A stretch of 64,000 nucleotides of DNA from Nitrospira sp. (lineage in GTDB: Bacteria; Nitrospirota; Nitrospiria; Nitrospirales; Nitrospiraceae). Under the pieces are notes generated by a model that saw only the letters and a list, made by a program, of their open reading frames with translations, was not told where the DNA came from and ran no database searches. Positions 28,171 through 55,172 of this stretch are shown in pieces; the stretch's first letter is position 1; every line of letters starts with the position of its first letter. The stretch is from contig CP092079.1 in the NCBI GenBank assembly GCA_022226955.1, positions 1,829,053-1,893,052 on the forward strand, given 5' to 3'. The translations under genes and the position numbers were made by a program.

Positions 28171-28200
28171 GCATCACACTGAGTCGTCAGGAGATTAATC

Positions 28201-29142: not shown

Positions 29143-29147
29143 AGGGC

Positions 29148-29969
29148 ATGGCCAGGCGTACCTATAAAACACTGGCGCTCGAGCTTGAGGAGTATGCGGA
29201 TCGCGTTATACAACACTTAGAGGACCACGGCTACAAAGTCCAAGTAGAGAGAATTGAACTTGGATTCCCACATACCCCTACTCTTCTTGCCAAGAGAGAC
29301 CGCACAACCCTAATCATTGAGGTCGACTCCACAATCAAATTTGACCGTCTTGACGCCTGGAGACGGTATGGAAAGTCCTGTAACCATGACGTTCGAATAA
29401 TTGTCTGCCTCCCAGACAGTGTTCAGGCTTCACCTAAAGATCAGGAACAGATCCGCACCAAGGGGCTTGGTTTATCAACTATCTCGCAAACTGGGGCTAC
29501 TGGCGTTATAGCTCCCATTGATTTGTCTCTCAATATTGCTCTGCCAGATCGAGCCACTCTCCCTAAGAAGCTTAAAGCTCTCTTGGGTGCAACTTATGAT
29601 CATTTTGACCAAGGGTCTTGGCGTGATGGTTTTGAAGAAGCAAGTCGTGTCTTGGAGATTCAGAGCCGTCGATATCTCAAGCATTGGATGCGTACAGGTC
29701 GCATCCAACTGATATCAGCAAAAGGTCCGAGAAAGCTTACAGGCTCAGCAATTGAGAAACTTCCTATGGGAGCACTAGCCAAAACATTTAGAGAGATCGC
29801 AGCCAAAAACGGAACCGATTCTCAGATTGAGAAGACTCTGGAAGCAATCAATCAAGATCGAGTGTCGGTTGTACACCATAGGCACAAGAAAAGAACGGAA
29901 ACGCGGCTCAGGTCAAATGTAGGCCAGAATATGTGGGCGATTGTGGAGGCACTCAAGCTGATAGTTTAG
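29148..29969 (+). CDS. Unknown protein: possible degenerate PD-(D/E)xK-like domain followed by HEPN-like domain
   Basis: I do not recognise a named family in this 273-residue protein. Residues 10-90 have an alpha-beta pattern (ELEEYADRVIQHLEDHGYKVQVERI, then TLLAKRDRTTLIIEVDS, then VRIIVCLPD) that resembles a restriction-endonuclease core. The active-site lysine is replaced (EVD rather than ExK) and no clear PD aspartate is present. Residues 150-273 are helical with FDQGSWRDGFEEASRVLE and, at 238-243, RVSVVH, an R-x4-H that fits the HEPN RNase motif. Translation probably couples to the ParB-like gene 5 bases upstream. The protein is basic overall. Both domain readings are mine and need a profile search. 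Confidence 0.8.
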   Translation: MARRTYKTLALELEEYADRVIQHLEDHGYKVQVERIELGFPHTPTLLAKRDRTTLIIEVDSTIKFDRLDAWRRYGKSCNHDVRIIVCLPDSVQASPKDQEQIRTKGLGLSTISQTGATGVIAPIDLSLNIALPDRATLPKKLKALLGATYDHFDQGSWRDGFEEASRVLEIQSRRYLKHWMRTGRIQLISAKGPRKLTGSAIEKLPMGALAKTFREIAAKNGTDSQIEKTLEAINQDRVSVVHHRHKKRTETRLRSNVGQNMWAIVEALKLIV

Positions 29970-37763: not shown

Positions 37764-38744
37764 CTAGATCGCGCCATGTTCCTTGAACCATGCGGCGGTG
37801 CGATGCACCGCCTCTTTCGTGCCCACCTTCGGGCCGTAACCGAGTTCGCGGCGACTTTTGGAAAGGTCGAACGCCCTGTCCCCAAGATAGAGATCAATCC
37901 GGTCCGCGCGTGGAAGCCGGCAGCCAATCCACGAATACAGATACCGGCTCGCCGCCTCGTACAATCGGAACGGCTTTGCCGGAAAATTAGCCGGTAGGGC
38001 AGGCGCTCCAATCGCCTCGACAATGGTTTGAACGAGATCCCGCAGCCGCACCGACTCGGGACCGGCAAGGATATACGTTCGTCCCTCAATGCCGGCGACC
38101 GATCCGCAAAGAATCAAGCCCTCCACAATATCTGTGATATCCGCGACATGGTGATGATTATGACCATCGCCGATCAAGCGGAACCGGCCGGCCGCAATGG
38201 TTTTAAATAAGTTCAGCCAGCTCATGGCTCCCGGACCAAGCACAGCAGAGGTCCGTGCCAACACAACCGGCAAACCATCGCGCTGATGGGAGGACAAGAG
38301 CGCCTGTTCGGCCGCGAATTTAGATTGCCCATAGGGCGAATCAGGAATGGGGACCGTATCCTCGGTAATTGAACGGTTCTTGATCGCGCGGCCAAACACC
38401 GCGCCGCTGGTGCAGAAGACGAGCCGGCTGGCTCCGGCAACCAGTGCCGCTCGCGCGACGTTCACGGCGCCTTGCACATTGACTGCCTCAAAATCTTTTC
38501 GGGACGGTCCGGAGGCTTCGGTTCTGGCTGCGAGGTGAAAAATCCGCTGGCAATTCGAAGCGGCCCGTTGCACACTTTGGTAATCGAGCACATCCCCGCG
38601 AACGATTTCGACATCAAAACGATCGAGCACGGACAGATTCTCTTCCGGAAAAGCCAGCGCGCGAACAGAAACCTTCTCGGCAGTCAGCCTCTCGATGAGA
38701 TGGCGGCCGATAAAGCCCGTGGCACCGGTCACGAGAACGGTCAT
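37764..38744 (-). CDS. NAD-dependent epimerase/dehydratase (SDR, copy 1)
   Basis: The 326-residue extended SDR has the NAD motif VTGATGFIGRHL, FHLAARTEA, a serine in FCTSGAVFG, and the catalytic YxxxK (YGQSK). GGAGA lies just upstream of the ATG at 38744. It is paralogous over its full length to the epimerase at 39909-40904, with the intervening Gfo/Idh/MocA gene between them. It probably modifies a nucleotide sugar, with exact chemistry unknown. Confidence 0.93.
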   Translation of the reverse strand: MTVLVTGATGFIGRHLIERLTAEKVSVRALAFPEENLSVLDRFDVEIVRGDVLDYQSVQRAASNCQRIFHLAARTEASGPSRKDFEAVNVQGAVNVARAALVAGASRLVFCTSGAVFGRAIKNRSITEDTVPIPDSPYGQSKFAAEQALLSSHQRDGLPVVLARTSAVLGPGAMSWLNLFKTIAAGRFRLIGDGHNHHHVADITDIVEGLILCGSVAGIEGRTYILAGPESVRLRDLVQTIVEAIGAPALPANFPAKPFRLYEAASRYLYSWIGCRLPRADRIDLYLGDRAFDLSKSRRELGYGPKVGTKEAVHRTAAWFKEHGAI

Positions 38745-38799
38745 CCTCTGCTCTCCTTCTCCTGAGGGTCGTACACCGCAATATGGAGCCCTTCGACAC

Positions 38800-39873
38800 T
38801 CACGATACGATACGGTCGGATGACTGCTGCTCAATGGTCACCGGCCGCCTCAGAGCCAAGGCTTCTTTAGCGGCAAGAACCACTTGCAACGCGCGCCGGC
38901 CCTCTTCTAGCGCACAATCTGGCCTTGTATCTTGACGGATCGCATCCATGCAGTGCTGCCATCCCACGCGATATGAGTCGATAAAATCGCCGCCGTAGCG
39001 CATCCGAGCCAGACCTTGCGGCAGTTCCCTCAAGGTCTGTGACGCCAGCTGCACACGAGTTTTAATATCTCCTGGATGGACTTCCGGCGGGAAATACTCG
39101 AAACCATCGAAACGATAACAGGAGATTTTCAGGCGGCCCATCTGGCCATAGATCTCGATCTCGTCGTTCCTGCTCTCGCCTTCCGAGAAGGTGGAAGAAA
39201 CGAGCGCCCCGTTCGCCAATCGCGCAGTCACAACCACCGTCGATTCATCGACGGTGCTCGCGGCAAGGATTTCATTGACCTCATTTCGAAGCAACGCATG
39301 CACTGCATCGAAGTGATGCACGCCAAACTGATAGAGAATCCCCTTCACCGCATGGCGATCGCCTTCCTCATGAAAACTCCGGCGCTCCGGATTTCTGCCG
39401 GTCAAGACGGTGCGAATCAGCTCGAGTTTCCCTAAACTCCCCTGCCTGACCACTTCTTGTGCGCGGCGCACGAGTCGATGCCAGCGGCGCGGCAACCCTA
39501 CCACCATGATTTTCAGGCTGGCTTGCGTGGCTTGCGCCATCAGCCTATCCCACACCGCCAGGTCGAAGACCAAGGGCTTGTCGATAAACAGATGCTTTCC
39601 TGCGGCAAGAACGGCCTGCGCCGCCTCAACCTGGCGGACGGCTGGCAGCCATACCCCGACGGCTTCGATAGCCGGATCGTCGAGCAGCACACGGTAGTCG
39701 GCATATCGGCGCTGAACCTGAAATTGATCTGCCACTCGCTTCAGCCGATCAGGATCGTCGTCGGCCATAGCTACGACATCCGCGGCTCTGCCCCCTCTCA
39801 AGGCCGGCAAATGCAAGGTCTCTGTTACCCATCCGCATCCTATAATGCCCAGCTTTACCGCGGCACTTCTCAT
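38800..39873 (-). CDS. Gfo/Idh/MocA family oxidoreductase
   Basis: The 357-residue protein has the Rossmann start LGIIGCGWVTETLHLPAL, VGVWLPAVRQVEAAQAVLAAGKHLFIDKPLV (family EKP motif as DKP), and a C-terminal beta-sheet domain with GVHHFDAVHALL. Members reduce or oxidise sugar C-3 or similar positions using NAD(P). It lies between two paralogous epimerases, suggesting the three modify the same nucleotide sugar. Substrate is not evident. Confidence 0.93.
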   Translation of the reverse strand: MRSAAVKLGIIGCGWVTETLHLPALRGGRAADVVAMADDDPDRLKRVADQFQVQRRYADYRVLLDDPAIEAVGVWLPAVRQVEAAQAVLAAGKHLFIDKPLVFDLAVWDRLMAQATQASLKIMVVGLPRRWHRLVRRAQEVVRQGSLGKLELIRTVLTGRNPERRSFHEEGDRHAVKGILYQFGVHHFDAVHALLRNEVNEILAASTVDESTVVVTARLANGALVSSTFSEGESRNDEIEIYGQMGRLKISCYRFDGFEYFPPEVHPGDIKTRVQLASQTLRELPQGLARMRYGGDFIDSYRVGWQHCMDAIRQDTRPDCALEEGRRALQVVLAAKEALALRRPVTIEQQSSDRIVS

Positions 39874-39908
39874 AGTTATCGATGCCTCCCTTCCCCCTGA
39901 TAGCCTCT

Positions 39909-40904
39909 TCAGTCAAACTGAGGAAGATGGCCGCGCGCCCGAAACCATTCCGCCATACGGTGAATCGTATTTTTTAAGGCAATTTCAGGCACATATCCCA
40001 GTTCTTGACGGGCTCGCCCAATGTCAAACCTGCGGTCGCCAAGGAACAACGCAAGACGGTCCGCACGAGGCAATTTACGCCCGATCAAAGCAACCGCCAT
40101 CCTGTCGAGCGCCCTATAGATATGCAAGGGAGCGGCTGGAAGATTCGTCGGGAAACGGCTCCTGTTCACTTCCTCTCCGATCATCTCGATCAATCGTTTC
40201 AGTTGCACCGGCTCGCTTCCTGAGAGAATGTACGTTCGCCCCTCCACTCCCTTCACAAACCCGCACAGACACAACCCTTTGACGATATCGGAAACATCGG
40301 CGATATGATGATAGTTCGCCCCTTCCCCAATTAGGCGGAACCGCCCGGCTGCAATGCTTTGAAACAAACCCAGCCAGCTTGTCGTGCCCGGCCCCCACAC
40401 CGTCGAGATCCGAGCCACAACGACTGGCAACCCGTCCCGCTGCCAAGCAGATAGGACAACTCGCTCGCCAAGCACCTTCGATTCGCCGTACGGGGAATCC
40501 GGGTCTGTCGCTGTGCTCTCCTCAATCAGCCGATGAGGAACGATGCGGCCGTACACCGCGACGCTGCTGCAAAACACCAATCGCTCAATACCCGCCCGCA
40601 AGGCCGCACGCGTGACGTTCTCGGCGCCCCGGATATTGGCCATTTGCACATCATGCTTTGACAAGAGACCGACGGACTCGGTTTTCGCTGCCAAGTGAAA
40701 CACGATCTTGCGCTTATCCGCTGCCCGCTCGACGGCGCCCGCATCGCCGATGTCGCCTCGCAGAACCTCGACTCCGAGAGTATCGAGCCAAGCAGCCGGT
40801 GCAGACGGCCGCACCAATGCCCGCACCTGCTCTCCCGCCGCCACCAGCCGCTCGACTAGGTGGCGACCGATGAATCCTGTCGCCCCGGTCACAAGGATGG
40901 CCAT
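39909..40904 (-). CDS. NAD-dependent epimerase/dehydratase (SDR, copy 2)
   Basis: The 331-residue protein is a near twin of the 37764 gene: ILVTGATGFIGRHLVERL, FHLAAKTESVGLLSK, FCSSVAVYG, and the YGESK catalytic motif. The pair share an SDR core and the C-terminal ELGYVPEIALKNTIHRMAEWF (GLGY/ELGY type) end, so they arose by duplication. It opens 47 bases after the end of the GT2 gene upstream. Sugar specificity is unknown. Confidence 0.93.
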   Translation of the reverse strand: MAILVTGATGFIGRHLVERLVAAGEQVRALVRPSAPAAWLDTLGVEVLRGDIGDAGAVERAADKRKIVFHLAAKTESVGLLSKHDVQMANIRGAENVTRAALRAGIERLVFCSSVAVYGRIVPHRLIEESTATDPDSPYGESKVLGERVVLSAWQRDGLPVVVARISTVWGPGTTSWLGLFQSIAAGRFRLIGEGANYHHIADVSDIVKGLCLCGFVKGVEGRTYILSGSEPVQLKRLIEMIGEEVNRSRFPTNLPAAPLHIYRALDRMAVALIGRKLPRADRLALFLGDRRFDIGRARQELGYVPEIALKNTIHRMAEWFRARGHLPQFD

Positions 40905-41959: not shown

Positions 41960-43192
41960 TTATCTCCTTACTGCCTGCATCGGCGTTTCCGCATGGACAG
42001 AATCGGCAACCGGTGCCCCTGAGACCATCTGCCGATATAGCGCCACGAATTGCTCGCATTGCCGGGACAAACTAAACTGTGTCACAGCAAGAGCCCGGCC
42101 CGACGTCCCCATTGTTTCTGCTTTGGCTCGATCACTCAGGACTTCTTTCAGTTTCTCAGCCAGCGCGTGCGGGTCGTTTGGAGGAACCAACAACCCAGTT
42201 GCTCCATCCCGCACAATTTCGCTTAATCCGCCCATGGAGCTGGCCACTACCGCAGTGCCTCGCATCATGGCTTCAACAGCCACCAGCCCAAACGGCTCTG
42301 CCCATCGAGACGGCACCACCTGCACCCAGGCTTGAGCAAACCTGCGTTCCATCTCTTCTTTGGAAAGATGGCCCAGAAACGTCACGCGCGTGGCTATATC
42401 CAGCTTTTCAACCAATGCTGCGAGCGCGGCACGTTCAGGCCCATCGCCGGCAAGAACGAGCCGTGCCTCGGGAAGCTCGCGCGCAACGATGGCAAACGCA
42501 TGGAGCAACACGTCGACACCCTTCTCGGAAACTAACCGGCCGGCAAACACGGCAACCGGCTTGGGGGACAATACTCGCGTGAGAGATTCAACGGTCACCC
42601 CATTGTGGATCACCTCAACCGATCCGATCCCGTCGGCAATCAAGCGCTCTTGCACAGCTCGACTATTGGCGACGATTCGCCTAAAGACAGGCCGCCACGC
42701 TCTCCAGAGCCTCATTTGCAATTGCAGCGGCATCCAATCCCGCAATGGCACACAGGCATTCTTGCGACAAGCATGTCCGGCAGGGCTCTGACAAGAGGCC
42801 CCCGTCGGCAAGAGTTTCGTACCTGTCAGACAGATGGGCCGATACCACACCACATGATACAGAGCAGGAATCCGGCGAAGGAGCGGGAGGATCAATGGAG
42901 AGAGTTGCGTTAAAAACATTCGGACATGCACGACGTCCGGCTGAAACTCTTGCAACACGCGGCGCAGTCGAACAAAGGCCCACGGATTCAGCATCTGCAA
43001 CAGTGTCCTGAACCGAGAGAGCGTCCCGTAGCAGAGGTAGTCGGCCTCCGACGAAGCAGGCAATGTGCCGGCGGAACTGGCAAACAGCCGCACATCGTGT
43101 CCCAGCCGCCGCAACTCATCTCGCAGCGCAAAGGTCAGGACCTCTGCCCCGCCAATCGGCGCGCCATAATCATTGATCAAAAGAATCTTCAT
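41960..43192 (-). CDS. GT4 family glycosyltransferase
   Basis: The 410-residue GT-B enzyme starts MKILLINDYGAPIGGAEVLTF, with the donor-binding C-domain VAVFAGRLVSEKGVDVLLHAF and the EX7E-type motif in VPSRWAEPFGLVAVEAMMRGTAVVAS. A cysteine-rich stretch (SCQSPAGHACRKNACVPL) in the acceptor domain is shared with other GT4s of glycan loci. It is the first gene of its block and faces the PilZ gene divergently over about 250 bases. Confidence 0.94.
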   Translation of the reverse strand: MKILLINDYGAPIGGAEVLTFALRDELRRLGHDVRLFASSAGTLPASSEADYLCYGTLSRFRTLLQMLNPWAFVRLRRVLQEFQPDVVHVRMFLTQLSPLILPLLRRIPALYHVVWYRPICLTGTKLLPTGASCQSPAGHACRKNACVPLRDWMPLQLQMRLWRAWRPVFRRIVANSRAVQERLIADGIGSVEVIHNGVTVESLTRVLSPKPVAVFAGRLVSEKGVDVLLHAFAIVARELPEARLVLAGDGPERAALAALVEKLDIATRVTFLGHLSKEEMERRFAQAWVQVVPSRWAEPFGLVAVEAMMRGTAVVASSMGGLSEIVRDGATGLLVPPNDPHALAEKLKEVLSDRAKAETMGTSGRALAVTQFSLSRQCEQFVALYRQMVSGAPVADSVHAETPMQAVRR

Positions 43193-43426
43193 GCCCCTCG
43201 GCGCCCTGCCTGTCCGTCACACATCGTCATATACATCCTATGTCTCCATGACGATACTGCACGAAGGTCCGAACCATACTCTCATCCTACAAAGATCGAC
43301 GCCGAGCCACAACCCACAGTTTGAGGGGATGAATATGCTCCTCCCTACCCATGCCCCGCACTAACTCGCGGGCGCGATGTCCGCAGCCCCTCCAAGGAGG
43401 GATACGTTTACGACCTCACGCCACGC

Positions 43427-43432
43427 TACACT
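43427..43432 (+). promoter_or_regulatory. -10 element of the second PilZ gene
   Basis: GCTACACTGCG here matches GCTATACTGCG before the first PilZ gene, and in both cases exactly seven bases separate it from the ATG. No ribosome binding site is visible, so the transcript should be leaderless. The -35 region is weak. The rest of the 250-base divergent region to 43193 shows no clear promoter for the GT4 gene. Confidence 0.45.
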
Positions 43433-43442
43433 GCGGATTGCC

Positions 43443-43802
43443 ATGGCACAGACTACGTCTTACAAACGCGAACATTACCGGCTACCGCTGCCCACAGCGT
43501 ATCCTGTCATGTTTGCAGGCGCCGCCGCGATCGGAGAAGGCACGGTCACGAACCTCTCCGTACTCGGCTGCACGATTGAATGCGACGCGATGCCGCCCTC
43601 TGTGACAAATTTGTTGCTGCGAGTGATTCTCCCAGACCGGCAGGAATCGCTGCCTATCGAAGAAGCGGAAGTGCGATGGATGGAGGATCGGCGAATCGGC
43701 GTCCAGTTCAGAAAAGTGGAGCGCGCAGCCAATCTTCGCCTGCACGGATTCGTATGGGACCGGATGCTCGAACGGCTTCAGGCCATCTCGCAGAACCGCT
43801 AA
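43443..43802 (+). CDS. PilZ domain protein (cyclic di-GMP receptor candidate)
   Basis: This 119-residue single-domain PilZ protein has the R-box REHYR (residues 9-13) and the NLSVLG motif (37-42). Both c-di-GMP contacts are present. The start at 43443 is preferred over the longer frame from 43377 because it places the R-box near the N-terminus and follows the promoter motif. It is the only plus-strand gene within the polysaccharide locus, between its two blocks, so post-translational control of synthesis by c-di-GMP is a reasonable inference. Confidence 0.92.
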   Translation: MAQTTSYKREHYRLPLPTAYPVMFAGAAAIGEGTVTNLSVLGCTIECDAMPPSVTNLLLRVILPDRQESLPIEEAEVRWMEDRRIGVQFRKVERAANLRLHGFVWDRMLERLQAISQNR

Positions 43803-43894: not shown

Positions 43895-45451
43895 TCAGAA
43901 CTTCTCACCCACCCGCTGCCATCCCTCCTCCAGGAGCTGTGTTCCCAACAAAACGGGCGGGCTTTCCCGCCAATACCAGATACGTTCGTGATGTGCATCA
44001 AAATCTAGCAACTCTGAACCCCAATCTTTTGAATAGGCAAATCCTATGACATGCATGCCAATTGAAATTCCTGTCAGCCCTATGACTACATACCTCGCCC
44101 AGGCCCTCTGACCGATTCGCTCGAGGGCCGGCGCCATCAAGTAACAAAGGAACGGGGCACTATCCGCTAACAGCCTTGGGCCGTACCCATGACCGCCCCA
44201 CCAACTCCCGAGTGTTGCGACCGGAATGAGCAACAAGAGCGGCGCCACGCTGAGATACCGTAGAAAGAGCTGTCCCGGCGTTCTCCATACCACCACCATG
44301 CCAACCAGCGCGCAAAGGAAAATAGGCGAATAGATGAATAGCCCACGTGCCGGGGAAAATAACACGCCCGCAAGCCCTTCGAGGAAGGGCGTGTTGAACC
44401 AGGAGAGATGGTGTCCGACGAGGGATGCCGGAGTGACAACAGTCGCGCCAAATCCGGTTCGGACGGGCGAACCGAAATACGCTGCGTTGTACCACAGGAA
44501 CAGCAACAGCGGAGGCATGCCGGCAAGCACGAACCCCAGGCAGCGATCTCGATGCTCATGGAACACATACAGCGCAATCGGAAGCGCCATCACGAGATTC
44601 AGCGGGCGACAGATAACCGCCACCCCAAGTACCAGCCCGGCCCACGCAACAGCGGCGGGCGTTTCCTTGCCCCTTACCAGGCAATACAGAGTAAGTGAAA
44701 AAAAGAGCTGGCTCGGGCCATGCTGCCACGACGCTTGACTGATGAGGCTCAGGCTGCTTGTCCCGAATGCGTAGACAAAGGCAACAAACCATGCCACGCG
44801 CGGCGGCGTGACGCGCCGCAACCCGACAAATAACGTAAGCACCGACAGCGCAACCATGAGCATGCCTGCCCGCTTTTCCAAATCGAACAGCGCCTCGGCT
44901 CCGATTCTTGCCCCTGCCTTGAGGACGGGGAAAAAATACACCGGCACGGACAAGACAGCGCCCCATGGAGGGTACGTCGATATCAGGTGTCCGTCGATGA
45001 TCCGTATAAAGTATTGTTCCTCGTACTGCTCAATGGTGGACGCATACTCATCGAGATAAAAATCATGGTCCGTGAGGAGGCTGACGGGAAGAAACCGCGC
45101 CGGCAGCGTATCCGCCATCTCAAATGTATGGCCATTGAGGTAATACAGGCTCAGCGAGCCGATGAACAAGAGGAGAGGAGACTGCGCCCACTCGGCTGCC
45201 GAGAGCCCGGCCCGCCTCCCTTCCAGCCACGTCGTGGCGCATGCGAAGGCCAAACAGAGCAGCAGCCAGTTCCTCAGAGAATAGGCATGAAGATGAACGG
45301 GGCCGACCGTGATATCGTAGCCTCCTTGAACAAAGAACAAGACGAGCACATTCGCGCAAACCAGATAAAACAGAACACGAATCCCCTTCTCGAAGAGAGT
45401 GCCTGGCTGGGAATCAGTACCCGTCATGGGCGTCACGCGCCGACCAAACAT
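43895..45451 (-). CDS. GT-C-like polytopic membrane protein (GT39/PMT-like)
   Basis: The 518-residue protein has about ten to twelve hydrophobic spans. YLNGHTFEMADTLPARFLPVSLLTDHDFYLDEYAS in the first periplasmic loop has acidic residues where GT-C glycosyltransferases bind metal or the polyprenyl donor. WGAVLSVPVYFF and PPRVAWFVAFVYAFGTSSLS resemble GT39 relatives. I chose ATG at 45451, which has GAGGG about 9 bases upstream. It ends the second block. It might transfer a sugar from a lipid carrier, or be a polymerase-like protein. Confidence 0.82.
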   Translation of the reverse strand: MFGRRVTPMTGTDSQPGTLFEKGIRVLFYLVCANVLVLFFVQGGYDITVGPVHLHAYSLRNWLLLCLAFACATTWLEGRRAGLSAAEWAQSPLLLFIGSLSLYYLNGHTFEMADTLPARFLPVSLLTDHDFYLDEYASTIEQYEEQYFIRIIDGHLISTYPPWGAVLSVPVYFFPVLKAGARIGAEALFDLEKRAGMLMVALSVLTLFVGLRRVTPPRVAWFVAFVYAFGTSSLSLISQASWQHGPSQLFFSLTLYCLVRGKETPAAVAWAGLVLGVAVICRPLNLVMALPIALYVFHEHRDRCLGFVLAGMPPLLLFLWYNAAYFGSPVRTGFGATVVTPASLVGHHLSWFNTPFLEGLAGVLFSPARGLFIYSPIFLCALVGMVVVWRTPGQLFLRYLSVAPLLLLIPVATLGSWWGGHGYGPRLLADSAPFLCYLMAPALERIGQRAWARYVVIGLTGISIGMHVIGFAYSKDWGSELLDFDAHHERIWYWRESPPVLLGTQLLEEGWQRVGEKF

Positions 45452-45499
45452 CACAGCTTACCCTCAGTTATATTTCCCGGTTCCCTGGCCACTGGGCTT

Positions 45500-46441
45500 T
45501 TACGCCGTCCCCTTAATCGACTTGCCGGCAAGCCACCGCCGCAGGCCTTGAGGCATGAGCCAGATTCCGGCAAACACACAGGCATCGAGCACGCTGGAAG
45601 CCCCGAAACGACAGGCATTCTTCAAGAGCGGCCAGAATGCCGATCTGTCCCCCTGTTCAATCGCATTGGCGCTCAACCAGGTCAATAGGAACGAGGCATA
45701 GGCTTGAGAGGTCATCAACTGGCGATTCCGTTGCGCCCAAGACAGCGAAAATCTCCAGTCTTTCCGACTGCTCATTGTTTCCAGATGCTCCGGCCTGTGC
45801 CAAATCGCAAGCGGCTCAGAAAACGGCGCGAATTCAACGACTCTCTCGCCGCGCGCGGTGGCCCGGACAAGCCAGTCGAGGTCATCGTGCCTTCGCGCCT
45901 CTGCTCGAAACGGGACTGTCTGCAACAGGTTCTTGGTCGTAAAGACCGTAGACGTTTGCACGAGGCCTTCTCCCCCACACAAGCGCGTACGGCGGAACAA
46001 ATATTCGCTCATGGGCTCGCCGGACACCGGCAGCCTCCGCGGCAGCACCACATCATCGATATCGCTTCGCTTGATGAACCGGCATGCAATGATGGGATCC
46101 TTGAACGTGGATTGTTGCGCGGCGCGCAACTGGACCTCAAGCTTGCGTGGGTGCCATTCGTCGTCATCGTCGAGAAAGGCGATCCATTGACTGCGAGCCG
46201 CTCCGACGCCTGCGTTACGGGCCTGCGCAGCACCCTGGGACTGCAACAGCAGCTTCACCAGAAGCCTGGACTCATCCAGCGCGGCAAGCACCTTTTCCGT
46301 TTTCTCATCGGGCCCATCAATGACCACGACCACTTCGATCGATTGCAGCGTTTGCGCCAACGCGCTCCGAACCGCGCGCACGACTAATTGCGGCCGGTTG
46401 ACTGTCGGGATCACGACTGATACCAGCGGATGATCGTTCAT
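45500..46441 (-). CDS. GT2 family glycosyltransferase
   Basis: The 313-residue protein starts PLVSVVIPTVNRPQLVVRAV, and SIEVVVVIDGPDEK and WIAFLDDDDEWHPRKLEVQL (DxD) follow, classical GT-A motifs. AFFPFSEP-like C-terminal text and a short hydrophobic stretch follow. GAGG lies 8 bases before the ATG at 46441; a GTG at 46444 is also possible. It starts 18 bases after the cytochrome P450 stop. Confidence 0.93.
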   Translation of the reverse strand: MNDHPLVSVVIPTVNRPQLVVRAVRSALAQTLQSIEVVVVIDGPDEKTEKVLAALDESRLLVKLLLQSQGAAQARNAGVGAARSQWIAFLDDDDEWHPRKLEVQLRAAQQSTFKDPIIACRFIKRSDIDDVVLPRRLPVSGEPMSEYLFRRTRLCGGEGLVQTSTVFTTKNLLQTVPFRAEARRHDDLDWLVRATARGERVVEFAPFSEPLAIWHRPEHLETMSSRKDWRFSLSWAQRNRQLMTSQAYASFLLTWLSANAIEQGDRSAFWPLLKNACRFGASSVLDACVFAGIWLMPQGLRRWLAGKSIKGTA

Positions 46442-46459
46442 CACGCGAACCTCTTTGCC

Positions 46460-47809
46460 CTAATCCCGCCGATGCAATCGCATCATGATCCCGTTTTGGG
46501 GGCGCAACGTCATTTTCGGTTCCGGCACAATCGCCTGCCCCGGCACCAATGACAATCTGAACCGCTGGGCAATGGCGGTAAGCGTCAGAATCGCTTCCAT
46601 CTTGGCAAAGTGCTCCCCAATGCAAACCCGGGCCCCGCCGCCGAACGGAAAATACGCAAACTGCGGCCGCTCTTTCTTGGCCGTTTCGGTAAACCGTTCT
46701 GGGTTAAACCGCTCAGGGTCAGAGAAATATTGCGGGTTGCGATGCATGACATACGGACACAAATAGATTTTCACTCCCGCAGGAATGACTGCACCGCTCG
46801 GCAATTTATCCTCTTCCAGCGCCACCCGAATAAAAATCCAGGTGGGCGGATAGAGCCGAATGGATTCCGCCAGCACCATCCCAGTGTATGTGAGCCTCGA
46901 AAGATCTTCGGCTGACGGAGGCCGGCGGCCGAGAACGCCGTCCACCTCCGTGAAGAAGGCCGCTTCAATCTCCGGATGTTGAGACAGGAGATAGGAGGTC
47001 CACGTCAACGCCTCCGCAATCGTCTCATACCCGGTTACAAACAGGGTCACTGCCTCATCGCGAACCTGCTGATCGGTCATTCCGGTCCCATCATCGTACT
47101 GCGCGCGAAGAAGCCGCGCGAGCAGATCCTCACCGCCTGTGGGATGCGCGCGGCGCGACTGAATTGCGCGATAGACGATGTCGTCGATCCGGCGCATCGC
47201 CTTGCGATAGGCCCACCCGATCCGACTCGGCACCCACTCGGGAACCGGCGAAAAAAACACATGCTCCATATACAGCCGCCTGACCGTAATGGCCTCTAGC
47301 AGCGCCGGCATGTCCTCGTCCGCATCCGGTCCTAACAACGTCTTAACGATGTTTTCTTGAGCCAGGCCCATCATTTCCTGGTTGAGATCGATCTGCATGC
47401 CATCCGTCCACCAGTCGAGCATGGCGGCGATTCCGGTTGTGACCGTGTGCGAAAAAGACTCCATGACCTTCCGGTAGAACACCGGCTGCATCATCCTCCG
47501 CTGCCTGAGATGCGCCGTGCCCACGCTGGTCAAGAGGCCGGATCCCGACAGCCGCTTCCCGCTCACGCTGGTCATGCGAGGCGATTTGACATAGTTATCC
47601 GGGTTTATCACCAACACATGCTTGACGTCTTCCGGATGATTGAGCACATACGTCGGCTCGCCAATGTTCAATTTGACCACATCGCCATACACAGCCGCAC
47701 AACGTGAGAGAAAGCCGAGCTTGTCGTATAAGAATACCGGGAGATGCCCCACAAGCGGGTAACCAGCCGGCCCCTGAGCCGCCGATTCGACGTTGTCGCC
47801 GCTACTCAT
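46460..47809 (-). CDS. Cytochrome P450
   Basis: The 449-residue protein has all P450 signatures. The I-helix oxygen-activation motif is FVTGYETIA, K-helix ExxR is ESIR in LAESIRLYPP, the PERF motif is in DPERFNPERF, and the heme loop FPFGGGARVCIGEHFA has proximal Cys396. There is no N-terminal membrane anchor, so it should be soluble and depend on a separate redox partner, none of which is in the window. It overlaps the upstream GT4 gene by 8 bases, so co-expression with glycan biosynthesis is likely. An oxidative tailoring step on a glycan or lipid carrier is one reading. Confidence 0.95.
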   Translation of the reverse strand: MSSGDNVESAAQGPAGYPLVGHLPVFLYDKLGFLSRCAAVYGDVVKLNIGEPTYVLNHPEDVKHVLVINPDNYVKSPRMTSVSGKRLSGSGLLTSVGTAHLRQRRMMQPVFYRKVMESFSHTVTTGIAAMLDWWTDGMQIDLNQEMMGLAQENIVKTLLGPDADEDMPALLEAITVRRLYMEHVFFSPVPEWVPSRIGWAYRKAMRRIDDIVYRAIQSRRAHPTGGEDLLARLLRAQYDDGTGMTDQQVRDEAVTLFVTGYETIAEALTWTSYLLSQHPEIEAAFFTEVDGVLGRRPPSAEDLSRLTYTGMVLAESIRLYPPTWIFIRVALEEDKLPSGAVIPAGVKIYLCPYVMHRNPQYFSDPERFNPERFTETAKKERPQFAYFPFGGGARVCIGEHFAKMEAILTLTAIAQRFRLSLVPGQAIVPEPKMTLRPQNGIMMRLHRRD

Positions 47810-49043
47810 CTTGAGCCAATTCTTCGCAGGCCACGACCGATGCACCCTTCCTTTTTCCGATAGCGCCGATGATTCGGAGATAGCGGTCCAGATAGCGTTC
47901 TCTGGAATAGAACGTCTCGTACCCGACTCGAGCCCGTTGCGCAAGGGTTTCTCGTAAATCACCGTCCCGGGCCAGTGCGGAAAGCATTCTCTGGAGTTCC
48001 TCTCCAGACCGGTACACAAATCCACCGCCGGTTTTCTCGACCGCTTCACCGCTCCCACCGACGTCATGGACCACTGCTGGCGTTCCACAAGCCAGCGCTT
48101 CAAGCACGGCCAGCGGGAACACTTCCGGAGCCAACGACGGCACAATCACCGCTGTAGCCTTCTGGTACAGCCCGATCAGCTCAGACTGCGGGCGCACACC
48201 TAGAAAACGAATGTGTGGAACCCCCTCATACCGCGCCTGAAGATCTACAAGCAAATCTCCACTACCCACAACATCCAAGTCAAATTCCGGCAATCGCACA
48301 AACTCTTCAAGCAACCGATCGATACCCTTGGAGGCGGTTACTCTGCCGACAAACAAAAAACGCGGCCGCCCAACCCAAATGCGCCGCGCGGGCGGACCCG
48401 GCTCCATATTGGAAAATGTCGGCAGAACATCGATCGGCGCGATCACCCCCGCAGCTCGATGCTGTTGCGCCGTGAATTCGCTCGGGGCCAACAGGGCGTC
48501 CACATTGGCCACGCTGCGCTGGCTCAAATTCGTATACCGCCACAATTGAGGGGGGACTCCCGACCGAATACAACAAGTGAAGCACTCCGGGCCATCGCAG
48601 GCGCGAGCTTGGTTCTTCCACAGAATATGGGTCGGACAGAGTAGCCAATGTTCGTGCAGGGTATACAGCGTCACCGGTGCGCGACTCAGTTGAAGGGCAC
48701 CGGGACCTCCGATCAACGAAATATTATGGAAATTGACCACGTCGAAATCACGGTCGAGCACCGCTCGCAGCTGCGCCGCTTTGACTCCCGGATGGCCCGT
48801 TTGCTGCGTGATCAACGGAGACAGCTTGCCGAAGGGACTGTGCAGACGATGCACGACAATCCCGTCCTGTTCACCCTGCGCAGCCGGTTCTGCCCTGCCT
48901 CGCAAGCGATAGGCATCTTCGCAATGCACCACTTCAACATGGTGCCCTTTCGCCACCAGCGCGCGAGCCAATCCCTGCACAAACGTGGCGTCGCCGCCAA
49001 AATGATAGGGCGGATAGAATGTCGTCACCATGCAAAACCGCAT
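47802..49043 (-). CDS. GT4 family glycosyltransferase
   Basis: The 413-residue GT-B protein opens RFCMVTTFYPPYHFGGDATFVQGLARAL. It has RFLFVGRVTASKGIDRLLEEF in the donor domain and VIVPSLAPEVFPLAVLEALACGTPAVVHDVGG (E-x7-E). CDGPECFTCCIRSG in the acceptor domain is a cysteine cluster seen in other GT4 proteins of such loci. It follows a truncated GT2 fragment and overlaps the P450 gene. Confidence 0.94.
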   Translation of the reverse strand: MRFCMVTTFYPPYHFGGDATFVQGLARALVAKGHHVEVVHCEDAYRLRGRAEPAAQGEQDGIVVHRLHSPFGKLSPLITQQTGHPGVKAAQLRAVLDRDFDVVNFHNISLIGGPGALQLSRAPVTLYTLHEHWLLCPTHILWKNQARACDGPECFTCCIRSGVPPQLWRYTNLSQRSVANVDALLAPSEFTAQQHRAAGVIAPIDVLPTFSNMEPGPPARRIWVGRPRFLFVGRVTASKGIDRLLEEFVRLPEFDLDVVGSGDLLVDLQARYEGVPHIRFLGVRPQSELIGLYQKATAVIVPSLAPEVFPLAVLEALACGTPAVVHDVGGSGEAVEKTGGGFVYRSGEELQRMLSALARDGDLRETLAQRARVGYETFYSRERYLDRYLRIIGAIGKRKGASVVACEELAQDE

Positions 49044-49253: not shown

Positions 49254-50204
49254 CTACGCCAAATGCCTCGGGCTATTACCTGGGCCAAAGAGATACCCGA
49301 CGAACTCACCTGCGGCATGACAAGTCACAACCAAGACCGTGAGCGGCAGACTCGCTAAGGCATGCTTCAGCAGCCGCCGCTTTCGTATCACAGGGCCTTG
49401 AGTCACCCATAACAGGTAGGCCGGCAAAATAGCGCAGCCGCCGAGCCGAATCAGCCGTTCGACCCATGAGACGCGCTGGAGACGAAACCCAGCGATCGAC
49501 CGGCCGTTATGGAAATGCGCCGCAAAGGTTCCCCAAAACCCCCAGGTCTGATTATGCGAAACGATGAGCCGATCGTCCGCGATAAGGATTTCCCCTTGTT
49601 CGCACAATGTGCGATTGAACAAAAACTCCATCATGCCGAGTCGAGAGAGTGTCCGTGGAACGACCCGCCGTTTGTACGAGATGTTGGCTTGCAACGAAAT
49701 GGTTCGTTGTAGGCCCGTTTCAATCGGCGCGGTGAAGGGCCCGAACACGATCAGGAAATTGGACCAGTCGATGAGTCTGGTGGTCGCGCCGTTTTCGACA
49801 ACCCCACCGATCGCGGCGGCTTCCGGATGATTTCGATGCGCCGCCAGCATTCGTTCACACCACTCGGGCGTCACCGTGCAATGGTCTTCGGTCACCGCCA
49901 CGACGTCGCCGGCGGCCTGGGTCATGGCAAGCTCGCGCAGGAAAAACACCGACCCACCGGACCATGGTATCCACTTCACTTCCGGATAGCGCTCAGCCAC
50001 ATCGACCGGCAACCCCTGGCCATGCCCATCCCCCACCAACACCTCCGCGCCGATTGCCAAGGCCTGGGCATGAAGCGACTCAAGGCAGAGCTGGATTTCC
50101 GGCCAGGCCTTGGTTGTCGCAATGACGACCGATAAGGGAACGGAGCCTCCGCTGCCCATTCCTGCCGTCTCTGGGTCCACCATCCGCTCAGGCGCCATAT
50201 CCAT
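49254..50204 (-). CDS. GT2 family glycosyltransferase
   Basis: The 316-residue protein begins VPLSVVIATTKAWPEIQLCLESL, and AEVLVGDGHGQGLPVD and VVAVTEDHCTVTPEWCERML follow, the metal site being EDH rather than DxD. The C-terminal 70 residues contain two hydrophobic stretches (CAILPAYLLWVTQGP, LPLTVLVVTCHAAGEFVGYLF). It starts 6 bases after the GT4 gene at 50211. Substrate unknown. Confidence 0.9.
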   Translation of the reverse strand: MDMAPERMVDPETAGMGSGGSVPLSVVIATTKAWPEIQLCLESLHAQALAIGAEVLVGDGHGQGLPVDVAERYPEVKWIPWSGGSVFFLRELAMTQAAGDVVAVTEDHCTVTPEWCERMLAAHRNHPEAAAIGGVVENGATTRLIDWSNFLIVFGPFTAPIETGLQRTISLQANISYKRRVVPRTLSRLGMMEFLFNRTLCEQGEILIADDRLIVSHNQTWGFWGTFAAHFHNGRSIAGFRLQRVSWVERLIRLGGCAILPAYLLWVTQGPVIRKRRLLKHALASLPLTVLVVTCHAAGEFVGYLFGPGNSPRHLA

Positions 50205-50210
50205 CGGGCC

Positions 50211-51353
50211 TTACCGGCGCGCCATGTTCATCGCCGCTTGATAACTTTTCACTGTCGCCCTCGCCGTCTGGTCCCATCGGTACTGGCGGGCCTGTTCAAG
50301 TCCCTCGCTCTGCCGTTTGGCCCGAAGCCTATCGTCGGACAACAGCCGTCGCATCGCATCGGCCAGCCCCACCACGTCGTCCGGAGCAACAAGCTCAGCC
50401 GCAGCCTCAAGATTCTCCGTCAGCGAGGAGGACCTGGTGCTGATCACCGGCACGCCGCACGCCATCGCCTCCAGCGGAGGAAACCCGAACCCTTCATGGA
50501 GGGAGGGATAGACAAACAGTCTCGCGCCCGCATACAGGGCGGGAAGGTCCTGTTGGCTCACATAGCCGGCAAGGTGTACTTTCCCGCGCAGAGCCGGCGC
50601 CTGGATCTGCTCCAGCAACGCCTCATATCCCCAGCCCAATTTGCCAGCGAGCACCAGGCGCTCCTTGATCGCGCCGGCCTCAACAAGCCGCCGATAGGCT
50701 TCGACCAATACCGGAATATTCTTTCTTGGCTCAAGAGTCCCAACATACAGAATGTAGGGATCCGGGAGCGCCAGCCGCGCCACGACACCCCGGACCGACG
50801 CAGGGTCACAAGGCCGGAACTCTTCACCGATTCCCGGCACGGTCACATGAATTCGATCCGGGTCCAGGTTCGGGAGAAATTCCAAGATCGCCTGCCTGGT
50901 CGCTTGAGAAGGCGCCACTACCACATCCGCCCGGTTGAGACTCACCAACACCATTCGCCGATACAAAGCGCTTCGCCGCAGGGCAATGTGGCATTGTGGA
51001 TGAGAAAAAGACGTCATGTCATGGACCGTCAACACATGCCGCGCCATCCCTCGCAGATACGGCATGATGAACGATGGGGAATGCACCACATCCGCGCCCC
51101 AAAGGGTCGCCGCCGCCGGCAAGAATATCTGCTGGGAGGCCAGGCGAATCGGCCTAGGCCGCGCGCTCAGGGAAGCATGAGAAACATTCTCCGGCAGTCC
51201 CTCAGCAAAGAGATACCGATCCTCATGGTTATGATAGATCCTGTACTGACTGGTTCGATCGACCTTCGCCAGGTGCCACACCAGTTGCTTCAAGTACGTG
51301 TCGATCCCCGTCATCTGGGGAATGAACGCAGTGAAATCGAATGCGACTCTCAT
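50211..51353 (-). CDS. GT4 family glycosyltransferase (mannosyltransferase-like)
   Basis: The 380-residue protein opens MRVAFDFTAFIPQMTGIDTYLKQL, and PYILYVGTLEPRKNIPVLVEAYRRL, ALYAGARLFVYPSLHEGFGFPPLEAMACGVPVIST and the acidic pair in this stretch give the GT4 retaining fold. ATLWGADVVHSPSF and LTVHDMTSFSHPQ fit the mannosyltransferase-like subgroup. AGGGTGA lies just before the ATG. Confidence 0.94.
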   Translation of the reverse strand: MRVAFDFTAFIPQMTGIDTYLKQLVWHLAKVDRTSQYRIYHNHEDRYLFAEGLPENVSHASLSARPRPIRLASQQIFLPAAATLWGADVVHSPSFIMPYLRGMARHVLTVHDMTSFSHPQCHIALRRSALYRRMVLVSLNRADVVVAPSQATRQAILEFLPNLDPDRIHVTVPGIGEEFRPCDPASVRGVVARLALPDPYILYVGTLEPRKNIPVLVEAYRRLVEAGAIKERLVLAGKLGWGYEALLEQIQAPALRGKVHLAGYVSQQDLPALYAGARLFVYPSLHEGFGFPPLEAMACGVPVISTRSSSLTENLEAAAELVAPDDVVGLADAMRRLLSDDRLRAKRQSEGLEQARQYRWDQTARATVKSYQAAMNMARR

Positions 51354-51374: not shown

Positions 51375-52304
51375 CTACCGGTACTGGCTCCCCACGATGG
51401 CTTCGCCGCGAAACGCCTGCCACATCCCGGGGATTTCGAGGACATGCGTCACAACGGTCAGCCCCAATGCCAGCGGCAGCTCGTGGAGCTTCACGTTATA
51501 GTGGCGGAAGCACCGGAGGCAGTCGCGGACGCTATCGAGGGTCTTCCCTGCCACGATCAACGGAATGGCCATGGCGCCGGCACGAATGAGCCAGGCATAC
51601 GGCAGTCGGTCATCGCGCAGCCGCGTGATGACGGTGCTATAGCCATGATTGCGCCGGATGTCCCGCTCCATCGGCCACCCTTCAAAATCATGCGTCACCA
51701 CCAGCTCGGGGTCGAATAACAGAGTCGCGCCGTCCCGCAGAAACGCCTCCGACTGGATCCGGGATGCAAAGGCGCCCATCCCAACGGGAAGTGGATGGCG
51801 CTGATAGATGTCGCGTCTAAACGCCGTCGCATTGCCGGAGATGAAACGAGTAGGACCACGCCGCCCAGGGTCAAGGTACGACCGCGATAACAGCCCCAGG
51901 AGTCGCTCCATGCGCGACCGGCCCGGATATAAGGTCCTGGCGCTGATGGCCGCTGCGCCGGGATGCTCGGCAATGGCGGCGCGCAGCACTCGCAGCCACG
52001 ACCGGCGCGGGATGCAGTCGGCATCGACAATGGCCAGCCAGTCACCGGTGGCAGCCTCCACCGCCTGGTTCTTCAGTTCATAAGAGGACTCGGCGTCGAC
52101 GTACAGAATTTTCAGGTTGGGAATCATCGCGGCCACATCTTCCGGTACCCGGCCTTTGAACCGTGAGGACTCGACAAGCATGAATTCGTCGGCAGGCATC
52201 CCCTCTTGCTCCACCCATACCCGCAACGCACACCGGAGATCCTCCCACGACTTCTCCTCGCCGGCCGCGTAGTCGGAAACCACAATGACGGAAAGTGTGC
52301 TCAT
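51375..52304 (-). CDS. GT2 family glycosyltransferase
   Basis: The 309-residue protein starts STLSVIVVSDYAAGEEKSWEDL, and WLAIVDADCIPRRSWLRVL carries the DxD site. PGRRGPTRFISGNATAFRRDIY is a family acceptor-binding region, and the C-terminal 70 residues are partly hydrophobic. AAGGGA precedes the ATG at 52304. The C-terminus resembles that of the 40952-41953 enzyme. Confidence 0.93.
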   Translation of the reverse strand: MSTLSVIVVSDYAAGEEKSWEDLRCALRVWVEQEGMPADEFMLVESSRFKGRVPEDVAAMIPNLKILYVDAESSYELKNQAVEAATGDWLAIVDADCIPRRSWLRVLRAAIAEHPGAAAISARTLYPGRSRMERLLGLLSRSYLDPGRRGPTRFISGNATAFRRDIYQRHPLPVGMGAFASRIQSEAFLRDGATLLFDPELVVTHDFEGWPMERDIRRNHGYSTVITRLRDDRLPYAWLIRAGAMAIPLIVAGKTLDSVRDCLRCFRHYNVKLHELPLALGLTVVTHVLEIPGMWQAFRGEAIVGSQYR

Positions 52305-52326: not shown

Positions 52327-53604
52327 TCATGCAATGATCTCCTCTGAAACACCTGTCTTGGAGCACCTATCCTGTTCAAATACTGGCGTCGCGGGATTTC
52401 CCACAGCCGCAGAGCCAACTGGCGCCACAGACTGCCGGACCTCCTCGGGTGACGGCGGACACATGCGTGGCAGCGAACAAAAAACCGTCGTCCGAATCGT
52501 CTCTCGGATGAAGTGCTTCAAGATTTCCGCATGGCGGTCGACAGCAAATTGTCCACGCAACTCCTCTGATGGGGCCTGACATGCCAACTGATCCGCTTCG
52601 GACGAACTCAAGAAGGCAACCCAATCCTCCGCGTTGTCCTTCGCCACCAAGCCCGGTCCGGAGGCGCAGGAAAAACCGCGTACAGCCTGTGTGGTAGCCA
52701 GCACCGGCATTCGATGGTGCAGGCTCTCCGCAACTTTGATATTGACGCCGGCACCCGCGCGAGTGGGGCACACCATAATATCGACTTGGCTCCAAACTGT
52801 TGCGAGATCCGGCACTCTGCCGTGAAGCACGACTCGATCCGAGACGGGCAGACGCTCGCTCCCCCGCCCAAAGACATGGACCTGGAGAGGCCGGTGAATC
52901 CTTGAAAGAACCTCCTCAGTCAGCCACTGCCAATTCCGTCGATTCGGCCACCAGGCGAAATCGGCAAGGTATCCGAGGCGCAACGGGCTGCTCACCCGAT
53001 GCCGCCGAGATGCCGGCGGCGCCGTAAAGAGCGGCGGGACATGAAGCGCCCGGACATTGGGGACCTGCCCCTTGCCCCAGGCCATTTCATCGGCTGAAAG
53101 AAAGATCACACCGGCGGCGCGATGAAAGGCCTCGATCTCATATTGCCGCTGCTTACGCACTTCTCGCTCGAACAAATAAGAGAAGAGTGGATAGAGAGAC
53201 ACTTGCTGTGCAAGCACCCGGTGCTCAAGATTGTGGGCAACCAGCAGGATCGGGATCTCTGAGGGCAATTCCTCGACGGCCCAAAACATATCGCTTCCAT
53301 TGATCACGACTGCTGCGTACCGGCGCACGCGGACCGCCTCGCGGATTCTCCTTCTGAACTCTCCCCGCAATGTAAAGAGCACTTTTGCAGGATGCGTTGA
53401 AACACACGAGCGCGCCAAAGACATGACTTGCCGAACATGCCTCCACGGCCCTGACGGCGGATACAGAGGCCCCAACAAATCCACATCAAATCGATGCTCC
53501 CCCTGCTGGAGCGCAGCTACCAATCCTCGCGTATAGGTCCCTGCCCCGCCAGGATGCGTGGCCGGATCGACCAGCGATACGATGAGAATGCTCGACGACG
53601 CCAT
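52327..53604 (-). CDS. GT4-like glycosyltransferase
   Basis: The 425-residue protein begins SSILIVSLVDPATHPGGAGTYTRGLVAAL, and HVFGRGSERLPVSDRVVLHGRVPDLATVWSQVDIMVCPTRAGAGVNIKVAESLHHRMPVLAT provides the GT-B donor site with Glu in KVAES. The C-terminal 50 residues (CPPSPEEVRQSV and beyond) are unlike GT4 relatives and low in conservation. GAGAGG precedes the ATG at 53604. It ends 22 bases before the following GT2 gene start. Confidence 0.88.
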   Translation of the reverse strand: MASSSILIVSLVDPATHPGGAGTYTRGLVAALQQGEHRFDVDLLGPLYPPSGPWRHVRQVMSLARSCVSTHPAKVLFTLRGEFRRRIREAVRVRRYAAVVINGSDMFWAVEELPSEIPILLVAHNLEHRVLAQQVSLYPLFSYLFEREVRKQRQYEIEAFHRAAGVIFLSADEMAWGKGQVPNVRALHVPPLFTAPPASRRHRVSSPLRLGYLADFAWWPNRRNWQWLTEEVLSRIHRPLQVHVFGRGSERLPVSDRVVLHGRVPDLATVWSQVDIMVCPTRAGAGVNIKVAESLHHRMPVLATTQAVRGFSCASGPGLVAKDNAEDWVAFLSSSEADQLACQAPSEELRGQFAVDRHAEILKHFIRETIRTTVFCSLPRMCPPSPEEVRQSVAPVGSAAVGNPATPVFEQDRCSKTGVSEEIIA

Positions 53605-53705: not shown

Positions 53706-55172
53706 TCAAGCCGCCTGCGCCGGCTCGCGCTTTCGAAACAACATCGAGCGAACTGCGGCCAGCTCTCCATGGCGAAACTCCCCGACCAACCAATAGCCGA
53801 ACAGACTGAAGATTCCCAGCAACATCAGTTTGGCGAACACCAGCAGCCCAGGAGTCGGCCATGCCCACGACGCCGCGCCGACGACAAGGCCGACCGCCAG
53901 GCTTCGCACAAGCGTCCCGGCCGGCGGCCACACCTTCCATAGCCCGTACACACTCATGAGAGCCACAGACGCACCCAGCGCAGAAACCGTGACGGTGACC
54001 AGCGCGGCTCCTTGCTGCCCCAATCGAGGAATCACGATGAGATGTCCAACCAGCGCCAGTAAGACCAATGGCGCCGTGAACAGCACCGTTCTAGCCGGGA
54101 GTCCCGCGGCCGTCATGATCGTGATCGACACCATCAGCATGACATTCGAGACCGCCCCGATTATCAAGAGCGCCAGCAGAGGGCTCGCGGGCACAAACTC
54201 GGAGCCGAAGACCACCTGCACAATCTCCGGCGATGCACCGGCAATAATGGCCGCGACCGGAAGAAAGAACATCGTGACGCGCATCGAATCCCGCGCGAGA
54301 TCCCTGGCCTTGTCCCTCTGGCCCTCCGCAAGCTGACGGCTCAACGTAGCCAGCAGCAGCGAGGAAAATGCCCAGGAAAACAGTCCAGGCAGGAGCGACA
54401 AGCTCTGAGCCGCGCTGTAAATACCGGATTGCAACGCGGTGCCGCCAAGAATTTTCAGCATGAACAGATCCATCCCATTGAAAAAGATGAGACAGATCGA
54501 GGAGAGAAACAACAGCGCTCCGTACCGCTGAATCGGAAAAGGCACCGACGCGTGCTTGGAGAACATCCCTTCTCCGAGGTACCAGCGACTCAGCAACAGC
54601 TCTGCCAGCGACGAACCGATCACGCCGAGCAACGCCCCCGTGATGGAGAAGCCTGCCTGCACAAGCCCCACGACAAGCCCCATTCTGACCAGCCAGCGGC
54701 CGGCCCTGGCAACGGCCCCAGCCTGGTAATCGCCCAATCCAATCAACACATTTCGATAGGCTTGTCCAATACACAACAAGGGAATATCGAGCGCGCACAC
54801 GCGAAGATAGAAAGCCAAATCCGGCTCTTTGAGCAGTGCGCTGAGCGGTGTGGCTAGAACCCAGACGAGCGCCATTGCCGCGAGGCCAATCTTCAGACTG
54901 AGGCGAATCACCATGGCACCGACTGGTTTCCAATCGTCCGTTTCACCGACAAATTTGATCGTCGCCTTGGCAAAAAATGAGCTGATCGCGCTTTCAACCC
55001 AAATAATGGTGGTCAGCGTGAGCGCCAGCAATCCATACCCGTGCGGACCGAGCTTCCTGGTCAAAAAGCCAGTCGTAATAAGAGCCGTAAGTGGGAACAG
55101 CATCTCCGCCAAAAATATCCTGGCGGTCCCGTCCATCATGCGGCGGCCACTCGCTGTTGTCAGTAAGCTCAT
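53706..55172 (-). CDS. Wzx-type oligosaccharide flippase (copy 2)
   Basis: The 488-residue polytopic protein shares start, length and motifs with copy 1 at 32737: DGTARIFLAEMLFPLTALITTGFLTRKLGPHGYGLLAL and QSGIYSAAQSLSLLPGLFSWAFSSLLLATL. Two flippases suggest two different lipid-linked glycans or a duplication of the whole pathway. A minus-strand promoter lies 139 bases upstream. Confidence 0.93.
   Translation of the reverse strand: MSLLTTASGRRMMDGTARIFLAEMLFPLTALITTGFLTRKLGPHGYGLLALTLTTIIWVESAISSFFAKATIKFVGETDDWKPVGAMVIRLSLKIGLAAMALVWVLATPLSALLKEPDLAFYLRVCALDIPLLCIGQAYRNVLIGLGDYQAGAVARAGRWLVRMGLVVGLVQAGFSITGALLGVIGSSLAELLLSRWYLGEGMFSKHASVPFPIQRYGALLFLSSICLIFFNGMDLFMLKILGGTALQSGIYSAAQSLSLLPGLFSWAFSSLLLATLSRQLAEGQRDKARDLARDSMRVTMFFLPVAAIIAGASPEIVQVVFGSEFVPASPLLALLIIGAVSNVMLMVSITIMTAAGLPARTVLFTAPLVLLALVGHLIVIPRLGQQGAALVTVTVSALGASVALMSVYGLWKVWPPAGTLVRSLAVGLVVGAASWAWPTPGLLVFAKLMLLGIFSLFGYWLVGEFRHGELAAVRSMLFRKREPAQAA

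Follow-up and report, generated by a model that had tools for sequence, protein, structure and literature searches.

The window, a stretch of 64,000 nucleotides of Nitrospira sp. DNA, contains a cytochrome P450 gene that overlaps the gene of a GT4-family glycosyltransferase, here named GT4b, by 8 bp on the same strand, as the original prediction stated (Table 1). The P450 starts with the ATG at 47809, where its orthologues also begin; upstream of it the frame stays open. The P450 superfamily profile PF00067 matched residues 12-441 with 259.5 bits (Pfam cut-off 22.8), and no other P450 match was obtained from the 3.64 Mb genome. The protein possesses an I-helix motif TGYETI, an ExxR motif (ESIR) and the motif FGGGARVCIG with Cys396. 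The haem cysteine and the Glu and Arg of ExxR were unchanged in all 58 rows of a P450 alignment, which omits L066 (the same sequence as L041), L015 (the same as L044) and L042 (frameshift near the C-terminus). The I-helix threonine and acid were unchanged in all 18 of its glycosyltransferase-linked (GT-linked) rows, which thus carry the complete set of superfamily residues. The earlier claim that every catalytic motif is intact was therefore confirmed. Between the window and genome G099 the P450 had a dN of 0.073 and a dS of 0.574 (dN/dS ~0.13), and GT4b a dN of 0.090 and a dS of 0.790 (dN/dS ~0.11). The P450 is under purifying selection, and its coordinates, PF00067 score, complete motifs and low dN/dS identify it as a genuine and maintained gene.

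Table 1. Genes of the P450 locus, with positions in the window.
Feature	Position	Strand	Remarks
GT4 glycosyltransferase GT4a	41960..43192	-	Pfam; GT4a-like protein is the P450 partner in G186 and Rubripirellula L077
GT-C type membrane glycosyltransferase	43895..45454	-	weak NF047440 and PMT_2 matches
GT2 glycosyltransferase GT2c	45500..46444	-	Pfam; directly downstream of P450
Cytochrome P450	46460..47809	-	449 aa; without N-terminal membrane anchor (by eye); catalytic motifs complete
GT4-family glycosyltransferase GT4b	47802..49043	-	P450 partner; 413 aa; PF13439 57.1 bits, PF00534 92.4 bits
GT2 glycosyltransferase	49254..50204	-	upstream of GT4b
GT4 glycosyltransferase	50211..51353	-	
GT2 glycosyltransferase	51375..52304	-	
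GT4 glycosyltransferase	52327..53604	-	
Polysaccharide flippase (Polysacc_synt_3)	53706..55172	-	possible upstream end of the gene run holding the pair

GT4b has both the Glyco_transf_4 and the Glycos_transf_1 domain of GT4 glycosyltransferases. The minus-strand genes scanned, from 32.7 kb to the window end, included GT2, GT4 and GT-C glycosyltransferases and two flippases, along with SDR epimerase-like genes, a Gfo/Idh oxidoreductase, a phosphodiesterase-like gene and a GDSL-like protein. The glycosyltransferase run is broken by a plus-strand gene (43377-43802), which we take to be PilZ-like. No polymerase or export system was identified among the locus genes scanned, and the label “exopolysaccharide operon” is one that we infer. 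In the same region, a methyltransferase and a GT2 domain were fused in one ORF (57137-58720), and a Gfo/Idh oxidoreductase lay between two HpnA-like SDR genes (37764-40904). Elsewhere in the window, three plus-strand ORFs (27361-29969), by eye adenine methyltransferase-like, ParB-like and a third protein, were flanked by CstA-like and M48-peptidase-like genes; the content of this gap differed in G099.

In the Pfam scan of locus genes, neither a ferredoxin nor a reductase turned up, in agreement with the original prediction. The genome held seven Fer2 matches, none of them in the window; the nearest lay ~61 kb ahead of its start and ~97 kb beyond its end. Fer4_15 had no match genome-wide.

Across the order Nitrospirales, 123 of 235 genomes had a P450 match (E <= 1e-20). 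Most of these belonged to two other kinds, at ~42% and ~38% identity, and no GT4b homologue was present beside them in the seven loci checked (L044-L050, 20 kb each). The close kind (48-86%) was found in the genome of the window and in G099, G160, G127, G083, G062, G128, G220, G216, G215, G227, G230 and G186, and as a fragment in G222. GT4b matches were recovered from 23 of the 235 genomes, 11 of them at 56% identity or higher, and in all 11 the orthologous P450 followed directly downstream of GT4b, with a single FkbM methyltransferase gene separating the two in G128. In most pairs the starts and stops overlapped or were at most 22 bp apart. A GT2c homologue was close to the P450 in 8 out of 10 Nitrospirales pair loci (L032-L041, 20 kb each). 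The order also had 15 places with weaker GT4b-like matches (34-46%), and the 11 that were examined all lacked an adjacent P450. A conserved protein with an IPVI-CIDVEPD start occurred near the P450 in G160, G062 and G220 (for example L052:2817-3935 and L054:4240-5280); two copies were tested and had no Pfam match.

A scan of named genome contigs yielded 34 P450 loci. Outside Nitrospirota, complete pairs were found in MAGs, namely in L057 (Myxococcota by the taxonomy applied, with Deltaproteobacteria in its title), in L058 and L061 (Acidobacteriota, L061 being a Bryobacter MAG) and in L060 (Rubripirellula, Planctomycetota). Among 347 Acidobacteriota genomes, 11 had a GT4b match, one at 56% with a P450 and ten at 40-45% without. 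P450 matches at E <= 1e-85 were detected in 47 of the 347 Acidobacteriota and 6 of 343 Planctomycetota genomes, and GT4b was present at 1 of 12 and 1 of 6, respectively, of the P450 loci fetched. From these counts and the pairs in several phyla, the GT4-P450 pair is rare yet widespread. No relative was found on viral contigs. The original prediction held that P450s placed at random in relatives, unlinked to glycan genes, would speak against it; the 11 Nitrospirales genomes and three further phyla instead showed a conserved pair.

The pair was flanked by a conserved cluster in Acidobacteriota (L058:2561-8684) and Planctomycetota (L060:588-7558 and 11326-12174). It comprised a methyltransferase, a radical SAM protein (NF045502, 383 bits in L058), an LpxL-type acyltransferase, an acyl-carrier protein, an AMP-forming acyl ligase and a pyruvyl-transferase-like gene. 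A polysaccharide-pyruvyl-transferase-like gene was present at four of the five non-Nitrospirota pair loci (L057, L058, L060 and L080, the last with a broken pair); L080 also retains the methyltransferase and radical-SAM protein of the cluster. A 2OG-Fe(II) oxygenase-like gene occurred in L057 and L058. The Bryobacter pair (L061) had no acyl-carrier, acyl-ligase, LpxL, methyltransferase, radical-SAM, pyruvyl-transferase or 2OG-Fe(II) genes nearby. Homologues of the acyl-carrier, acyl-ligase and LpxL genes were not found in the window or the Nitrospirales loci searched, so that any argument from them has to be borrowed from other phyla.

In the P450 tree (61 rows, 59 of them different), 20 GT-linked rows lay on one side of a branch with an SH-aLRT support of 99. 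All 16 GT4b-paired rows fell within this group, and none of the 41 rows outside it had the pair (tblastn of the window genes against 1.5 to 2.5 kb upstream, which a very divergent glycosyltransferase could escape). The rows are a chosen set, with 19 of the 34 contig-scan loci and part of the loci from the genome searches. L052-L056 and L059 were left out as already represented, L064, L080, L082 and L084 as fragments, L075, L076 and L079 as near copies, and L083 and L085 as distant. A GT4 gene was immediately upstream of the P450 at 18 of 19 distinct loci of the group (15 GT4b and 3 GT4a-like), counting L037, where one gene intervenes, and L073, where a short tail remains, and taking L041 and L066 as one sequence. 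In L043 (G186) the P450 shared one frame with a GT4a-like domain, in L077 (Rubripirellula) a GT4a-like gene overlapped the P450 by 4 bp, and in L073 the apparent tail of a GT4a-like gene occupied part of the first 97 bases. The exception was L042 (G230), with a GT2 and not a GT4 gene ~518 bp upstream. The evidence supports this P450-GT4 coupling well.

In the GT4b tree (34 rows), 14 of the 15 paired GT4s formed a single clade (support 100). The Rubripirellula GT4b clustered among unpaired GT4b-like proteins, which indicates that partners were swapped. Since both trees were quick ones with midpoint rooting, the direction of exchange is not inferred. P450 and GT4b distance matrices were correlated (r 0.94, with 0 of 2000 permutations as high), a value that may also reflect the shared descent of the hosts. 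On the simplest reading of these sequences, the P450 lineage would have retained a GT4 partner while the type of GT4 changed.

Some pairs were found joined or broken. In G160, GT4b (16-414) and P450 (427-874) formed a single 875-aa frame, which differed from the two-gene form by one base in a run of A when aligned with its kin. Because of this single base, the fusion may be an assembly error, and we rejected it as clear proof of physical contact. A 647-aa frame in G186 (L059), open at the contig end, had Glycos_transf_1 and p450 domains, with a GT4 of a different type. AlphaFold predicted the fused 860-aa protein as two mostly well-predicted halves (mean pLDDT 83.9, pTM 0.56) with a linker at 403-420 below 50; given this pTM and linker, no GT4b-P450 interface can be claimed. 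In G241 (L080:1111-3351), a broken GT4b ran to about residue 272 and there continued into the C-terminal half of the P450, being either a decayed pair or a misassembly. Since only these parts remain, G241 (L080 and L110) was excluded from the count of intact pairs.

The AlphaFold model of the P450 was confident, with a pLDDT of 90.1 and a pTM of 0.90. The nearest solved P450 by both sequence and fold was CYP184A1 of Streptomyces avermitilis (PDB 7wzl, 7wzm; Z 47.6, rmsd 2.2 over 437 aligned), for which a complex with oleic acid exists as well (Z 47.0); the match following had a Z of 43.4. CYP families group P450s at ~40% identity or more to a member. At 31-32% identity to the members with solved structures, the P450 falls outside the range of CYP184. 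A literature search, with most subscription papers outside it, found no paper naming CYP184A1. The next folds (Z ~43) were CYP51, CYP97C1, CYP120A1, CYP204A3 and P450 BM3, types that mostly take long hydrophobic substrates, going by entry titles and general knowledge. CYP170A1 (albaflavenone synthase; 3dbg/3el3) was the second-best PDB sequence match, and the best-scoring NCBIfam model was that of pentalenene oxygenase (NF045812), at 265.6 bits far below its cut-off of 800; both enzymes pair with terpene synthases, and no such synthase was noticed here.

The presence of the pair in at least four phyla suggests that its members act together to make an unusual molecule, oxidised and bearing sugar, which is most likely a glycolipid. 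The two proteins could be considered a two-enzyme module with one shared substrate. The P450 would be a working monooxygenase, probably receiving electrons from a ferredoxin and reductase encoded elsewhere, and would oxygenate a long hydrophobic molecule, most probably a fatty-acyl group or another lipid moiety. With a nucleotide donor, GT4b would add a sugar to this lipid, either at the new hydroxyl or at another site; alternatively, the P450 would oxidise the lipid product of GT4b. The surrounding GT2, GT4 and GT-C enzymes and the flippases may extend the oxidised glycolipid and presumably export it. A functional model exists in yeast, where CYP52M1 hydroxylates a fatty acid. In the sophorolipid pathway, CYP52M1 takes the first step and UGTA1 the first glucosylation, according to the available part of PMC8621470; these enzymes are functional analogues and not gene relatives. 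The intact P450, the constant GT4 coupling, the shared inheritance and the exchange of GT4 type within a P450 clade that is still GT4-linked can all be read from the sequences; a lipid-type substrate is likely, with the indirect support of the closest structure and of the acyl genes beside the pair in two other phyla. For the module as a whole, with GT4b and P450 acting on a shared lipid-type substrate to give an oxidised glycolipid, we judge the case to be evenly balanced. The original prediction had proposed a glycolipid, a polyprenyl-linked or a sterol-like aglycone as substrate. Its main suggestion, oxidation of a glycolipid or of a lipid aglycone, is still the best explanation, favoured by the nearest structures and by the lipid genes in other phyla; the sterol-like version is less supported.

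The P450 might instead act on the sugar part, either a sugar or O-methyl sugar added by GT4b or the growing glycan, which we consider rather unlikely. The Nitrospirales setting is a glycan locus, and the pyruvyl-transferase-like genes at the pair loci of other phyla make glycan decoration plausible. Sixteen positions were typical of GT-linked P450s. R177 was present in 18 out of 18 GT-linked rows and had a frequency of 0.0 among 40 others; together with Y180 and E182, likewise polar and clade-specific, it lies within a predicted helix run (142-186). By P450 anatomy these residues presumably belong to substrate recognition, and their polarity would fit a sugar or a charged head group too. A P450 that acts on a sugar is known from porphyran breakdown, where it demethylates 6-O-methyl-D-galactose (PMC10033563, in the part available). 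Its setting is likewise one of carbohydrates, but it is catabolic, whereas the neighbours here are glycosyltransferases. No sugar P450 was recognised among the structure matches listed, and the closest folds belong to P450s that act on fatty acids, sterols, carotenoids and retinoids. A hopanoid hydroxylated by the P450 and glycosylated by GT4b, an improbable substrate in our view, would agree with the sterol and terpenoid P450s among the close folds. A squalene-hopene cyclase was detected in the same genome (777 bits, cut-off 431), though ~92 kb from the window. Among the 17 genomes tested that carry a GT-linked P450, 16 had a cyclase above the cut-off, a co-occurrence that has no measured weight since only genomes with such a P450 were compared. 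The sterol-like or hopanoid substrate, also as a required one, is weakened by the Rubripirellula MAG G237 (completeness not known), which has the pair and a best cyclase match of 60.7 bits, below the cut-off.

Constant pairing with a GT4 and the possible fusions could also be expected if the P450 were mainly a structural activator of GT4b, in the manner of EryCII and DesVIII. In that precedent the glycosyltransferase EryCIII forms a complex with the P450-like EryCII, which lacks the haem-ligating cysteine (available part of PMC3391682). As there, a glycosyltransferase and a protein of P450 fold belong together; the glycosyltransferase here is of GT4 type. The haem cysteine, however, is kept, Cys396, ExxR and the I-helix acid-Thr being complete in 18 of 18 GT-linked rows. 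The activator model TIGR04515 (EryCII/DesVIII) matched weakly, at 26.9 bits against a cut-off of 343. The complete catalytic residues disfavour a pure activator role, which we regard as very improbable. Least credible is a passenger P450, unrelated to the variable surface-glycan locus in which it lies. The locus is indeed patchy among relatives, and related GT4b-like genes without an adjacent P450 exist, some of them in glycosyltransferase-rich loci. Against this stand the pairing in four phyla, the single group of GT-linked P450s and the repeated pairing with different GT4s. Random insertion was rejected, as the pair is conserved in the order searches and in both trees.

Secondary metabolism and catabolism are the roles usually given to P450s. 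A clade with a constant glycosyltransferase partner in Nitrospirales, Acidobacteriota, Planctomycetota and Myxococcota suggests that oxygen is used to tailor a glycolipid or glycan of the cell surface. More tentatively, and with doubts prevailing, the pair could be a portable GT4-P450 cassette of at least four phyla, repeatedly rewired to different GT4s, that makes an undescribed class of oxidised surface glycolipids in which the P450-installed oxygen is the glycosylation site. The literature search, again with most subscription papers outside it, found neither a GT-P450 fusion nor a Nitrospira GT-P450 pair, which is weak evidence of absence. The overlapping and possibly fused gene pairs, among them the GT4b-P450 fusion of record JAGXAR010000004.1, are compact constructs for direct substrate finding. 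Past the window end, a further gene run (L051:9553-14289, G000:C1 ~1902605-1907341) encoded the N and C parts of a TPP enzyme (two ORFs), a class-V aminotransferase, a nucleotidyltransferase and a CDP-alcohol phosphatidyltransferase. This run resembles one for 2-aminoethylphosphonate synthesis and transfer, and the glycan or lipid of the region may be phosphonate-bearing.
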